64,000 nt of DNA. It comes from Leisingera sp. ANG-M7 (GTDB lineage: Bacteria; Pseudomonadota; Alphaproteobacteria; Rhodobacterales; Rhodobacteraceae). Below are positions 59,666 to 63,456 of this stretch, in pieces. Positions within the stretch are counted from its first letter, which is position 1. Each line of letters begins with the position of its first letter. Below the pieces are notes generated by a model. It was not told the DNA's origin, searched no databases, and worked only from the letters and a program-made list of their open reading frames with translations. The position numbers were made by a program, and so were the translations under genes. The stretch spans positions 496,001-560,000 of the forward strand of contig NZ_JWLI01000001.1 in assembly GCF_000813965.1 (NCBI RefSeq). The letters are read 5' to 3'.

Positions 59666-60654
59666 TTGCGCGCCTCTTTCAGCTGCGGCATTCCAAGTTC
59701 CTTGGCCGAGATTGGCCCGGGTTCAGCATCGGTGCGGCGCCCGACCCGCAGACGGGCGGAACGGGAGCGCGGGTTTTCGGCCAGTTCCTGATCGTCCGGC
59801 CCCACCGCCTTGCGGGTGACCAGTTCGAACTGTGACGGCGCTTCTTCCTGCTCCGGCGCCCAGCGGTTTGCGCGGCCGGTCTTGCCTGCGCGGTGCTGGA
59901 AGAAGCGTTTGACCATCCGGTCCTCGACCGAGTGGAAGGTGACAACCGCCAAGAGCCCGCCGGGCTTCAGCGCCCGTTCAGCGGCCAGAAGACCCTCGAA
60001 CAGTTCCTCATATTCGGCGTTCACCGCGATGCGCAGGCCCTGAAAGCTGCGGGTCGCAGGGTGCGACTGGCCGGGCTTGGGGCGCGGCAGGCAGCTTTCG
60101 ATGATTTTGGCCAGGCGCAGGGTGGTCGTGATCGGTTCGATTGCCCGTTCTTTTACAATCGCCTTGGCAATGCGGCGGCTGGCGCGCTCCTCGCCGTAGT
60201 GGAACAGGATGTCGGCGATCTGCGCCTCGTCCAGTTCCGCGATGAGGTCGGCAGCGGAGGGCCCGGATTGCGACATGCGCATGTCCAGGGGGCCGTCTTT
60301 CATGAAGGAGAAACCGCGTTCAGCAAGGTCCAGCTGCATCGAGGAGACGCCAAGGTCCAGCACCACGCCGTCGAGGTCCTGCGCGTATTCATCCATGCGG
60401 GAGAACACACCGGGTTGCAGGATCAGACGGTCGCCGTACTCCCCAGCCCAGGGTTTTGCCAGTTCAAAGGCCAGCGGGTCACGGTCCACGCCGATCACCT
60501 GCTCTGCACCGGTCTCCAAGAGGCCGCGGGTATAGCCGCCGGCGCCGAAGGTTCCGTCAAGCCAGCGGCCCGAAACCGGCGCCACGGCTGCAAGCAGCGG
60601 GCGGAGGAGAACCGGAATGTGGGGACCATTGGCAGCTGTTTGGTCCTGGGTCAT
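59662..60654 (-). CDS. rsmH: 16S rRNA (cytosine1402-N4)-methyltransferase
   Basis: 330 aa MraW/RsmH methyltransferase that modifies C1402 of 16S rRNA with RsmI. SAM-binding motif [15 protein letters not shown] near residues 33-47, [19 protein letters not shown] near 99, the [13 protein letters not shown] segment near 200 and the [18 protein letters not shown] motif near 237. Usual length. It follows mraZ by 3 bases. Confidence 0.96.
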
Positions 60655-60657
60655 GTC

Positions 60658-61161
60658 TTAAGCGCCCCCGGCGCCGTCTAGGAATTCCATTGGATCGAAG
60701 CCCTCTGGCAGGTCATCCATCCACTCTTCGGCCTGGGCCAGCTCTTCCTGCTCGTAGGTTTCCGGCTTCCAGATCTGGAAGGTGTCGCCTGCGGCGATGA
60801 AGAAGGCCTCTGCCTCAAGATCGATCTTCTGTCGCAGCTTGGCCGGCAGCACCAGGCGGCCGGTCTCGTCCACGTTGGTCGGGAACGACTGGCCGTGGAA
60901 CATGCGCTGCAGCATCTTGCGCTGCATCGAGCCGCGCGGGAGCTGGTCGATCTTGGCGTCGACCTCCTCGATCGCCTCTATAGTATAGCATTCCAGGAAG
61001 TTGCGGCGCTGGTCTCCGTAGACGATCACCAATTCGGGGTTCTGGCCGGGCTGCCAATTGGGGTCGGCGGCCTCCAGCACACGGCGAAAGGAGGCCGGTA
61101 TCGACACCCGCCCCTTTGTGTCCACCTTGTGGTGGCTTTCGCCTCTGAACCTGCGGCCCAA
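60658..61161 (-). CDS. mraZ: Transcriptional regulator MraZ
   Basis: 167 aa with two SpoVT/AbrB-type DNA-binding repeats: DTKGRVSIPASFR near residue 13 and DETGRLVLPAKLR near 95. MraZ binds TGGGN repeats and represses its own dcw operon in E. coli. The start is taken as TTG at 61161 (LGRRFRGES), because it gives the family N-terminus and AAAAGGACGG lies at ribosome-binding distance; the frame is open upstream but does not fit the family. Rare start codons lower output, in line with a regulator. Confidence 0.93.
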   Translation of the reverse strand: MGRRFRGESHHKVDTKGRVSIPASFRRVLEAADPNWQPGQNPELVIVYGDQRRNFLECYTIEAIEEVDAKIDQLPRGSMQRKMLQRMFHGQSFPTNVDETGRLVLPAKLRQKIDLEAEAFFIAAGDTFQIWKPETYEQEELAQAEEWMDDLPEGFDPMEFLDGAGGA

Positions 61162-61763
61162 TTTCCCGTCCTTTTCGCGCGTCCCTCGCGTTAATCCGTC
61201 CCCCAGAATGAAAAGGGGCGGGTTGATCTGCTGCCACTGATCAACCCGCCGCCTTGGCCCGCTTTGCGGGATGTCCGACTGCACGCGCCACCTGGGGGGA
61301 TGTCTGCTCGCCCGCGCGCCGGATCTCTTGTTCGATGAAAGCGAAGGCCTGTATGAAACCTGCTTGTTTTGTTTTTGGCTCTGGGGTCGTTTGGCGCCCC
61401 GTCCCTCGTCTCATCCGATGAACTAGGGATACTATGGGAATTGATGGTCCCGCAACTGTTTTTTGCGGGAAATCGCCGAAGCCTTGACAAGGAATCCGCA
61501 GATTCGGGCAAGATTCGCAGTCAAATTGGGGCAAAATCCGGAACCACTAGTGAGTAAACTCAGCGCAAACACTAGATATAGATACAGATTGCAGAGGCAA
61601 TTTTTTTCCCATACTTTCCCGCGACTTTGCAGGTCCTGCACCCATGATTCAGAATGTTCCCGGTACGTTCAGGCCCGGCAATCAAAAAAAGCGCCAAAAA
61701 CACCCTGCGTAAGCGTTTCAACACCGAGTGATTCGCAACTTCAAGGGGTGCACTGCGGGAATG
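61162..61763. other. Leader and promoter region upstream of mraZ
   Basis: About 600 bases without a convincing gene. It contains a hairpin TCCCGCAA / TTGCGGGA (61448-61455, 61463-61470), and an isolated pair of MraZ-like boxes (TCCCA and TCCCG at 61607 and 61617, 10 bases apart), next to AT-rich stretches likely to hold the mraZ promoter. The exact -35/-10 could not be fixed. Confidence 0.5.
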
Positions 61764-61912
61764 GGCCATGATTTCCCATGCTGCCCATGATTTCCCGCAG
61801 TTCCCATGCTTTCCCACCAGCCCCACGCACCGCCACCTGTCCCATAGGCTCCCACCCGGCGCAGCAAGTGCCATGCAGTCCCATCTCAGGCGGGCAATCC
61901 CATCTGCGCCCA
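61764..61912 (-). promoter_or_regulatory. Array of about 16 phased MraZ boxes (TGGGN)
   Basis: Read on the minus strand (mraZ direction) the boxes are TGGGN. On the plus strand NCCCA starts at 61774, 61783, 61802, 61812, 61821, 61840, 61850, 61879, 61898 and 61908 (10 exact), with single-mismatch copies at 61764, 61793, 61831, 61859 and 61869; the slot at 61888 is lost. Intervals are 9 or 10 bases, mostly alternating. MraZ boxes are known in E. coli as three TGGGN copies at 10-bp spacing; this is far longer. Confidence 0.8.
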
Positions 61913-61986
61913 AAGCAGCAGAGCTCCCTGCCCCGCCAGCAAGACCCGCCGCGTCGGCAAGCCGTGGATCAACTCCGCCACGCAAA

Positions 61987-62009
61987 AGGCCCGCCAAAAC
62001 GGCGGGCCT
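61987..62009 (-). terminator. Terminator of mrp
   Basis: AGGCCCGCC / GGCGGGCCT with a 5-base loop, followed by TTTTGCG on the minus strand, 40 bases beyond the mrp stop. It insulates the TGGGN array from mrp transcription. Confidence 0.8.
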
Positions 62010-62048
62010 GTCAGAAAAGCCTCACTATATTAGTGGCGGACCGGTGCC

Positions 62049-63113
62049 TCAGGCCATGCCGCCGCCGATCAAGCCTTCGGCGATGCGGGCATATGCTTGG
62101 GCCATCATCCCATCCCCCGCTGCAATAGGCGTGCCGCTGTCGCCGGCCAGCCGCGTCTCCAGGTCGATGGGCAAGGCGCCCAGGAGAGGCAGACCCAAAG
62201 TCTCTGCCTCAGCCGCCACACCGCCGCGACCGAAGATGTGATGCTCGCCGCCGCAGTCAGGACAGGTGAAGAAGGACATATTCTCAATCAGCCCCAGCAC
62301 CGGGGTTTTCAGGGTGCTGAACATATCCATCGCCTTGCGCGCATCCAACAGCGCCACGTCCTGCGGGGTGGAGACAACGATGGCACCGGTCAGCTCTGCC
62401 TTGGTGCAGAGCGTCAGCTGCACGTCGCCGGTCCCTGGCGGCAGGTCGACGATCAGCACGTCCAGCTCACCCCAGTTCACCTGCCCCAGCATCTGCTGCA
62501 GCGCGCCCATCAGCATCGGGCCGCGCCAGACCACCGCCTTACCCTCCTCCAGCATGAAACCGATCGACATCAGGGTGACACCATGGGCGTGCAGCGGTTC
62601 GATGATCTTGCCGTCCGGGCTGGCAGGCCGTCCCTTGGCGCCCATCATCCGGGGCTGGGAGGGACCGTAGATATCTGCATCCAGCAACCCGACCTTGCGG
62701 CCCTGTTTGGCCAGCGCCACGGCAAGGTTCGAGGACACGGTGGACTTCCCCACCCCGCCCTTGCCGGAGGCAATCGCCAGGATACGCTTCACCCCTGCAG
62801 GCTTCAGCGGCTCCGCCTGCGGTTTCGGGTGGCCGCCGACCTTGAGGCTGGGGGCGGGCTGCTGGGGGGCATGGGCGGTCAGTGCGGCGGAGACGGTTTC
62901 AACGCCTTCCAGCGACTGCACCGCGGCCTCGGCGGCCTTGCGCAGCGGCTCCATCAGTTTGGCGATCTCGGGGCTTGGCGCCTCGATTACAAAGCTCACC
63001 TTGCTGCCCTCAATCCGCAAGGCCCGCAGCATGTCGCGCGACACCAGGGTGCCGCCGTCCGGCAGCGCCAGCCGCTCCAGCACCGCGTGAATCTGTTCCT
63101 GTGTGACACCCAT
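62049..63113 (-). CDS. mrp: Iron-sulfur cluster carrier protein Mrp/ApbC
   Basis: 354 aa. N-terminal MIP18-type domain (about 1-90), then a P-loop NTPase with SGKGGVGKSTVSS near residue 115 and a D-D-P-P-G motif (VDLPPGTGDVQL), and a CPDCGG-type Cys pair near 280 that binds the cluster. It carries [4Fe-4S] clusters to client proteins. Preceded by a divergent region with TATATATG; the DUF1127 gene is on the other strand. Confidence 0.95.
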   Translation of the reverse strand: MGVTQEQIHAVLERLALPDGGTLVSRDMLRALRIEGSKVSFVIEAPSPEIAKLMEPLRKAAEAAVQSLEGVETVSAALTAHAPQQPAPSLKVGGHPKPQAEPLKPAGVKRILAIASGKGGVGKSTVSSNLAVALAKQGRKVGLLDADIYGPSQPRMMGAKGRPASPDGKIIEPLHAHGVTLMSIGFMLEEGKAVVWRGPMLMGALQQMLGQVNWGELDVLIVDLPPGTGDVQLTLCTKAELTGAIVVSTPQDVALLDARKAMDMFSTLKTPVLGLIENMSFFTCPDCGGEHHIFGRGGVAAEAETLGLPLLGALPIDLETRLAGDSGTPIAAGDGMMAQAYARIAEGLIGGGMA

Positions 63114-63456
63114 GGCTGCTCTCCTGCGTCAATTCCGGCCCATATATATGTGTGTGCCCGCGCGCAGGGAACCCGGCCTGCGCCTTTGCCGCATCTGCAG
63201 GGAGGCGGATATGTCAATCCGCAGCCGCACAAGCCCTGCGCCGAGCGCGGGCGGATGCCCGAAAATTATACAGGCGCATAACGAACTGCTGAAAATCTCG
63301 TCCAATAACAAAGGTCTACCCTGCGTCACCCATGCACATGCCGCATAGCAGCAATGACGAAGCACGGGATTGTGCATCCGCAGCATATCCTTAAATTGTC
63401 ATTCAAGAAATGCCACAGCGGCACACGACGAGACGGTTAGACGAAGGAACAGAACG
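63114..63456. other. Divergent promoter region mrp / DUF1127
   Basis: 343 bases without a gene. TATATATG near 63143 may be the mrp -10 region. The promoter of the DUF1127-small RNA unit must also be here; an RpoH-type element is expected from Rhodobacter but could not be located with confidence. Confidence 0.45.

Follow-up and report, generated by a model that had tools for sequence, protein, structure and literature searches.

In Escherichia coli, the operator of MraZ is reportedly located at the mraZ promoter. The sequence directly before mraZ in E. coli K-12, TGGGAAATTGTGGGGCAAAGTGGGA, carries TGGGA-N5-TGGG direct repeats, which form a single three-box site between the promoter and the start codon, on the sense strand. 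According to the accessible text of PMC7761207, the MraZ site of Burkholderia cenocepacia comprises four repeats with a 10-bp period near the transcription start, and MraZ binding to it was demonstrated by gel shift, whereas the upstream half of the same gap was not bound by MraZ. In Mollicutes, the MraZ site consists of direct repeats at the mraZ promoter and the protein is an octameric ring (Fisunov et al. 2016, as cited in PMC8475190 and PMC7761207, the latter describing a toroid); the boxes are different, namely AAAGTG[T/G], and remote clusters are not described in the accessible parts of these two papers. The R. sphaeroides mraZ leader has a length of 268 nt and contains the terminator of the sRNA UpsM, with no promoter closer to mraZ, the search for start sites having been confined to 300 nt from mraZ (PMC5089854, accessible text). 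TGGG, MraZ binding and repeats are mentioned nowhere in that accessible text, which covers the leader and not the DNA beyond the promoter.

The locus considered here lies in a stretch of 64,000 bp from Leisingera sp. ANG-M7 (contig NZ_JWLI01000001.1, positions 496,001–560,000), hereafter the window, within which all coordinates are given. The genome encodes MraZ: the mraZ gene (60658..61161, minus strand, inferred start codon TTG) matched Pfam PF02381 with an E-value of 7.6 × 10−18, and its upstream neighbor on the same strand was a gene for an ATPase of the mrp/NUBPL type (62049..63113; PF10609, E-value = 2.9 × 10−97). As in the R. sphaeroides UpsM leader described in the accessible text of PMC5089854, the mraZ leader is long and contains an intrinsic terminator of the UpsM type (61211..61251, minus strand), recognized from its sequence and conserved in the alignment. 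A putative promoter (61427..61455, minus strand; −35 element TTGCGG, −10 element near 61427–61434) was placed by eye in a conserved block approximately 265–300 bp upstream of mraZ, in agreement with the 268-nt leader given in the accessible part of that paper. This promoter is overlapped by the predicted promoter operator AGGGA-N5-TGGGA-N5-TGGT (61425..61448, plus strand), which lies in the conserved promoter block and scored 8.8 and 20.8 bits with an operator matrix built from 66 promoter operators of 73 loci outside the genus of the window. The leader region 61190–61460 was matched in 186 of the 196 genomes of the order. The UpsM-type leader proper (61211–61327, minus strand) is nearly invariant, with a mean identity of 0.979 in 13 loci, unlike the DNA upstream of it. 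An Rfam search of 60300–63400 yielded only two sub-threshold matches (E-value = 0.37).

An earlier note on this DNA had described, on the minus strand at 61764–61912, 16 TGGG slots, of which 10 were exact, five had one mismatch and one was lost, at steps of 9 or 10 bp and approximately 600–750 bp ahead of the mraZ start codon; both the slots and their position were confirmed. Since the promoter itself lies well upstream of mraZ, the array is about 320–465 bp upstream of the promoter operator. The TGGG chain score in the 887-bp mrp–mraZ gap was 29.0, whereas 1,000 dinucleotide shuffles of this gap gave a mean of 4.0 and a maximum of 9.3, and 2,000 shuffles of the array only gave a maximum of 12.6. 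Among the 256 4-mers tested across the gap, TGGG had the highest score, and the runners-up ATGG (18.0) and GGGA (17.7) both overlap it. The 9/10 pair of intervals was the best of the 11 pairs compared (29.0; second-best pair 7.9), and elsewhere in the window the top TGGG chain reached 6.0. The array is genuine and lies far above chance.

The anatomy of the array was established by aligning 13 arrays, namely, those of the window, ten Leisingera-type loci (L003–L011 and L042), L012 and L091. No array among the 13 had an exact (T/C)GGG at the slots with 5′ ends at 61892 and 61863, and the array is therefore made up of seven two-box units, i.e., 14 boxes. This replaces the proposed series of 16 equivalent boxes recurring every 9.6 bp on average: the boxes are 10 bp apart within a unit, and the unit starts follow one another at 29, 29, 19, 19, 19 and 19 bp, with the unit consensus TGGGAAWTCATGGG. 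All units are on the minus strand. Unit 1 (TGGGCGCAGATGGG, 61899..61912) is weak (<8 bits), its box pair being conserved in the 13 aligned arrays; unit 2 (TGGGACTGCATGGC, 61870..61883) was identified both by the matrix (16.7 bits) and by the array alignment, and units 3 (TGGGAGCCTATGGG, 61841..61854) and 4 (TGGCGGTGCGTGGG, 61822..61835) were recognized from the array alignment and fall under the matrix threshold in the window. Units 5 (TGGGAAAGCATGGG, 61803..61816), 6 (CGGGAAATCATGGG, 61784..61797) and 7 (TGGGAAATCATGGC, 61765..61778), the last being the closest to mraZ, scored 20.4, 17.2 and 20.9 bits, respectively. Four of the seven units thus pass the 8-bit threshold in the window, and in the whole 64 kb at least 8 bits was reached at 12 places, seven of which are inside the mrp–mraZ gap. 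Unit 7 contains the exact sequence TGGGAAWTCATGG, the sole mismatch-free match in its own genome; with at most one mismatch, the 13-base unit had 13 matches in this genome, four of them in the mrp–mraZ gap, versus one for the control. The bare triple TGGG pattern was rejected as a specific marker (seven own-genome matches versus four with the pattern reversed). A five-box 10/9 pattern with at most two mismatches was found in 28 of 390 genomes and its reversal in 11 of 390; among the positive genomes with a known leader position, the former lay directly upstream of the leader in nine and at other places in seven.

In the 13 aligned arrays, the mean column identity was 0.912 for the boxes and 0.761 for the spacers, compared with 0.613 upstream of the array and 0.756 in the stretch from the array to the promoter. 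Two of the 14 boxes, at −546 and −441, were mostly or always TGGC/TGGT. The spacer within units fitted AAWTCA at 0.79 of positions (n = 50), whereas the linkers between units did so at 0.29 (n = 40). Counting the boxes in the aligned gap, as the earlier note had suggested, thus revealed an array conserved in the genus, with boxes retained more than the surrounding gap (0.912 versus 0.613–0.761), and not the loss of the period in a conserved gap that the note had named as contrary to its reading. It should be noted that locus L012 comes from a record titled Nocardioides marinus, an actinobacterium (JAHVJD010000007.1); its MraZ is 89% identical to that of the window and it has the same array, so the title looks wrong.

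A further unit, CGGGAAAGTATGGG (61608..61621, minus strand; 13.3 bits), lies between the array and the promoter, at a position that is conserved across genera. The comparison across Rhodobacterales was based on 75 loci hand-picked among the matches listed, with one or a few per genus, which together with the window made 76 loci from 67 genera; weak matches being missing from the matches listed, genera with weak leaders are under-represented. One further set of 80 loci represented the best 80 of 397. Two-box units with a spacing of exactly 10 bp were found in the distal zone of 66, in the proximal zone of 58 and, in reverse orientation, at the promoter of 68 of the 76 loci, whereas on the opposite strand they occurred in nine, two and five loci, respectively. 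In the distal zone, spacings other than 10 bp were found in 17–41 of the 76 loci. With the operator matrix at 12 bits, the distal zone yielded 95 sense matches in 62 of the 73 loci and one antisense match, and the proximal zone 50 sense matches in 46 of the 73 loci and no antisense match; the stretch from −230 to −150 had none on either strand, and the downstream region had two sense and no antisense matches. Since the matrix was derived from promoter operators, the promoter sites alone predict the upstream clusters.

In an extended set of 156 loci, there were no distal units in eight loci, one in 66, two in 48 and three in 16, and larger clusters of four, five and six units occurred in eight, six and four loci, respectively; within the clusters, spacings of 19 bp (84 cases) and 22 bp (14 cases) predominated. 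The Leisingera array is an enlarged local form of this predicted distal cluster, which has one to three units in most of the Rhodobacterales loci examined. Locus L110 has an expansion of its own between about −650 and −470 relative to the leader anchor, with units TGGGATCCYATGGC placed 22 bp apart and seemingly independent of the 19-bp arrays. An exact search for the Mrp P-loop peptide did not find it in the stretch of upstream DNA covered in 45 of 81 loci; the predicted clusters travel with mraZ and not with mrp.

The units correspond to the E. coli operator in having TGGGA-N5-TGGG direct repeats; the first two-box unit of the latter, TGGGAAATTGTGGG, matches TGGGAAWTCATGGG, and the E. coli site thus contains a unit of the Rhodobacterales type. 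The Leisingera locus differs in that its promoter operator occupies the opposite strand, with extra units approximately 172 bp and 317–464 bp upstream of it. With the B. cenocepacia site as described in the accessible text of PMC7761207, the units share repeats with a 10-bp period, whereas most of the units predicted here are far upstream. From other alphaproteobacterial families, 29 mraZ loci were considered, of which four without a recognizable motif were dropped and 25 were scored with a matrix derived from the 76-locus set, including the window. In 24 of the 25 loci, the 300 bp preceding the first mraZ motif contained an antisense unit of at least 12 bits, the remaining one (L193) scoring 11.5; a further-upstream unit was found in none of the 25 in 24,832 bp scanned on both strands. 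The strand of the mraZ operator is sense in E. coli and antisense in the scored alphaproteobacterial loci, as seen on comparing L165 and L184–L212.

The identity of the unit with that of the E. coli mraZ operator, and its detection by the same matrix as the operators beside mraZ throughout the class, support the assignment of the boxes to the MraZ type in the earlier note, and the protein that binds them is very probably MraZ. The absence of the promoter operator was associated with the absence of the distal site (67, 4/1, 4; Fisher p = 2.6 × 10−4) and of the proximal site (58, 13/0, 5; p = 4.6 × 10−4), in statistics that ignore kinship; of the five loci without a promoter operator, one (L112) keeps a strong distal site. 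Rank correlations of the site scores were weak (0.20–0.22, p = 0.05–0.08). MraZ was present in 12 of the 12 genomes checked, with a weak partial match only in the operator-less genomes G069 and G013, whereas G191, which has no operator at 8 bits, had a strong match; the evidence for joint loss of MraZ and operator is therefore mixed.

AraC, LacI and GalR are looping repressors in which separated operators serve one oligomeric protein and the distances between them are helically phased. They are unrelated to the MraZ protein family, and the phasing described below is natural variation between genera, not the result of engineered insertions. The distance from the proximal unit to the promoter operator was available for 58 loci, as 18 of the 76 had no scored proximal or promoter site; it was 169–174 bp in 46 loci, 159–162 bp in six and elsewhere in six, and pairwise identity of the intervening sequence had a median of 0.33 (263 equal-length pairs). 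Some of the values 132, 142–144, 210 and 230 bp fall out of phase with 172 bp. The distal–proximal distance, available for 57 loci (19 of the 76 having no scored distal or proximal site), ranged from 98 to 198 bp with one outlier of 44 bp and formed groups near 113, 124, 135, 146, 157 and 167 bp. The Rayleigh R of these distances at 10.5 bp was 0.69 (n = 57, p = 1.4 × 10−12), with a best period of 10.8 bp. It was 0.61 when each distance was counted once (n = 32, p = 5.6 × 10−6), 0.68 for clean two-box units only (n = 39), 0.60 when the best-scoring distal unit was taken instead of the nearest, 0.68 for one locus per genus (n = 48, with genus labels entered by hand) and 0.64 in the 156-locus set (133 usable loci, best period 11.1 bp). 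When distal and proximal positions were re-paired between genomes, the observed R was reached in none of 20,000 trials at five thresholds (n from 59 to 41, R from 0.69 to 0.57). In the controls, R was 0.20 for the distance from the distal unit to the leader anchor (p = 0.11), 0.29 for that from the proximal unit to the same anchor (p = 0.009; 0.10 on unique values) and on average 0.20, with a maximum of 0.41, for further (T/C)GGG words in the vicinity of the distal unit (200 draws). Phasing between the distal unit and the promoter operator was weaker (R = 0.45).

The same regularity was found in 66 independent pairs taken from a tree of the leader and the mraZ start. The distal–proximal distance was unchanged in 14 pairs and differed by 1–2 bp in 14, by 3–8 bp in none, by 9–14 bp in 19 and by at least 18 bp in 19. 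Changes of at least 4 bp numbered 38, of which 31 lay no more than 2 bp from a multiple of 11 and seven (14, 18, 25, 27, 29, 30 and 70 bp) were out of phase; a jitter null equalled the observed phasing in none of 5,000 runs. The proximal–operator distance changed by 0–2 bp in 57 of 65 tree pairs, by 10–12 bp in five and by 38, 39 and 57 bp in three. In the seven pairs inspected as alignments, the sequence separating the sites was of low identity and contained numerous indels. Looping studies have given an in vivo helical repeat with which a period of approximately 11 bp is consistent, and the helical phasing probably reflects a loop. At the same time, 19 bp does not correspond to whole turns, so the units of a long array cannot all loop with equal geometry; the long Leisingera array may thus add occupancy or wrap DNA instead of providing equivalent loops.

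Other elements were also observed in the gap. After the distal cluster, there is a GAATC (GANTC, CcrM-type) at 61730–61734 (minus strand), a hint of cell-cycle methylation control. At 61569–61584 (minus strand), approximately 37 bp downstream of the proximal unit, there is a palindrome-like sequence TATCTATATCTAGTGT of the CACWATATNTWGTG type, which we take to resemble an NrdR box. Its best score was at least 12 of 15 in 45 of the 76 loci and in none of one shuffle set; with one mismatch it occurred at four places in its own genome versus three for the control, including, by eye, places beside ccrM (L180) and gyrA (L183), and exact matches in 41 genomes numbered 39, compared with six for controls, one of them being beside a ccrM-like gene (L227). 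Sequences resembling a DnaA box, TTATCCACA/TGTGGATAA, were noticed by eye between the distal and proximal units in L094, L095, L096, L135, L138, L140, L014 and L023.

Several other explanations of the array were weighed against phased action at a distance. The reading of the earlier note, in which the array winds round one or several MraZ rings loaded side by side and forms a local nucleoprotein block with no contact to the promoter, accounts for the ten contiguous slots with alternating 10- and 9-bp steps, which are conserved in Leisingera, and for 19 bp being the commonest unit spacing; however, two of the slots are not boxes, and most loci have a single distal unit (66 of 156) or just a pair (48 of 156), too few to wrap and still phased, so that taken as the whole explanation it is unlikely. 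It is less probable still that the extra units are a reservoir which soaks up MraZ and sets the threshold for filling the promoter operator without contact. Such titration needs no fixed strand, distance or phase, whereas the strand, the proximal spacing of 171–173 bp and the steps of approximately 11 bp are all kept, even though the many copies near the gene, the variation in unit number between lineages and the seemingly repeated origin of expansions (19-bp arrays in Leisingera and others, 22-bp units in L110) would fit a reservoir. Neutral expansion of a tandem repeat without function, which the near-identity of units 5–7, as after slippage, might suggest, is already contradicted by the predicted sites' conservation, with boxes kept over spacers, and by the strand bias and phasing across genera, and it can hardly be maintained.

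A second upstream promoter, marked by the distal cluster together with a CGAATC approximately 40 bp further on, with each cluster repressing its own promoter, was considered about as improbable as titration. CGAATC was present in the zone from −520 to −330 in 57 of the 76 loci, compared with 22 on the other strand and three in a downstream control, often 30–60 bp from the last distal unit, and the start-site search in R. sphaeroides covered only 300 nt from mraZ, according to the accessible text of PMC5089854; but no conserved −10 or −35 element surrounds CGAATC in the aligned logo, and a second promoter leaves the distal–proximal phasing unexplained. CGAATC itself showed partial phasing with each of the two sites (R = 0.45 and 0.51, or 0.33 and 0.37 when each value was counted once), and another protein could therefore be the phased partner. 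That the units themselves are bound by a protein other than MraZ is very improbable: the low confidence of the AlphaFold model of the window MraZ (mean pLDDT = 49.1) leaves some room for it, whereas the identity of the unit with the E. coli MraZ operator, its presence beside mraZ in nearly all scored loci of other Alphaproteobacteria and the joint loss of the promoter operator with the distal and proximal sites, kinship being ignored, all speak against it.

The stronger evidence thus points to phased action of the array at a distance, together with 61608–61621 and 61425–61448, and not only to rings side by side, and autoregulation of the dcw operon remains the natural reading of the array, as the earlier note had it. 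We estimate a probability of roughly 65% that the remote MraZ operators, whose number has increased in Leisingera, act on the promoter operator via a helically phased DNA loop. In this model, the array would be the distal component of an MraZ control region made up of three parts, in which the oligomeric MraZ ring, with its many DNA-binding faces, would bind two-box units at three places: the promoter operator in the opposite orientation, the proximal unit approximately 172 bp upstream and the distal cluster of one to several units. Since MraZ forms rings, as described for the Mollicutes toroid in the accessible text of PMC7761207 (solved MraZ structures are also available), it could hold the distal, proximal and promoter sites together; one ring holding more than one unit, the bound rings would bridge these places and fold the intervening DNA into a loop. 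The identity of the units, their fixed strand, the fixed proximal spacing and the helical steps are what would be expected if one complex held all three sites. Because the operator overlaps the putative promoter, the outcome, we infer, would be repression of UpsM/mraZ/dcw transcription, and the loop would strengthen and sharpen the autorepression of the dcw operon; the seven-unit Leisingera cluster should raise the chance of occupancy or admit more rings.

The array has the 10-bp direct TGGGN repeats of MraZ operators and the recognition sequence of the promoter operator; as it lies away from the promoter, at which the site at 61425–61448 is located, it is classified here as a remote MraZ site and not as a canonical operator. 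As in known looping systems, three separated places are recognized, here by one matrix, and the distances between them are in helical phase. No description of remote MraZ clusters or of looping by MraZ was found in the literature searched, which consisted mainly of open-access journal papers. In a broader form, the balance leans, by a smaller margin than for the loop itself, towards control of the dcw operon throughout Rhodobacterales by a helically phased MraZ loop, with distances kept at whole turns and a period near 11 bp, the seven-unit Leisingera array serving as a platform for several rings or for one ring wrapped by DNA. Few regulators of bacterial cell division are as widespread as MraZ, and conserved, phased remote sites would give its ring a job, namely, holding distant DNA together.
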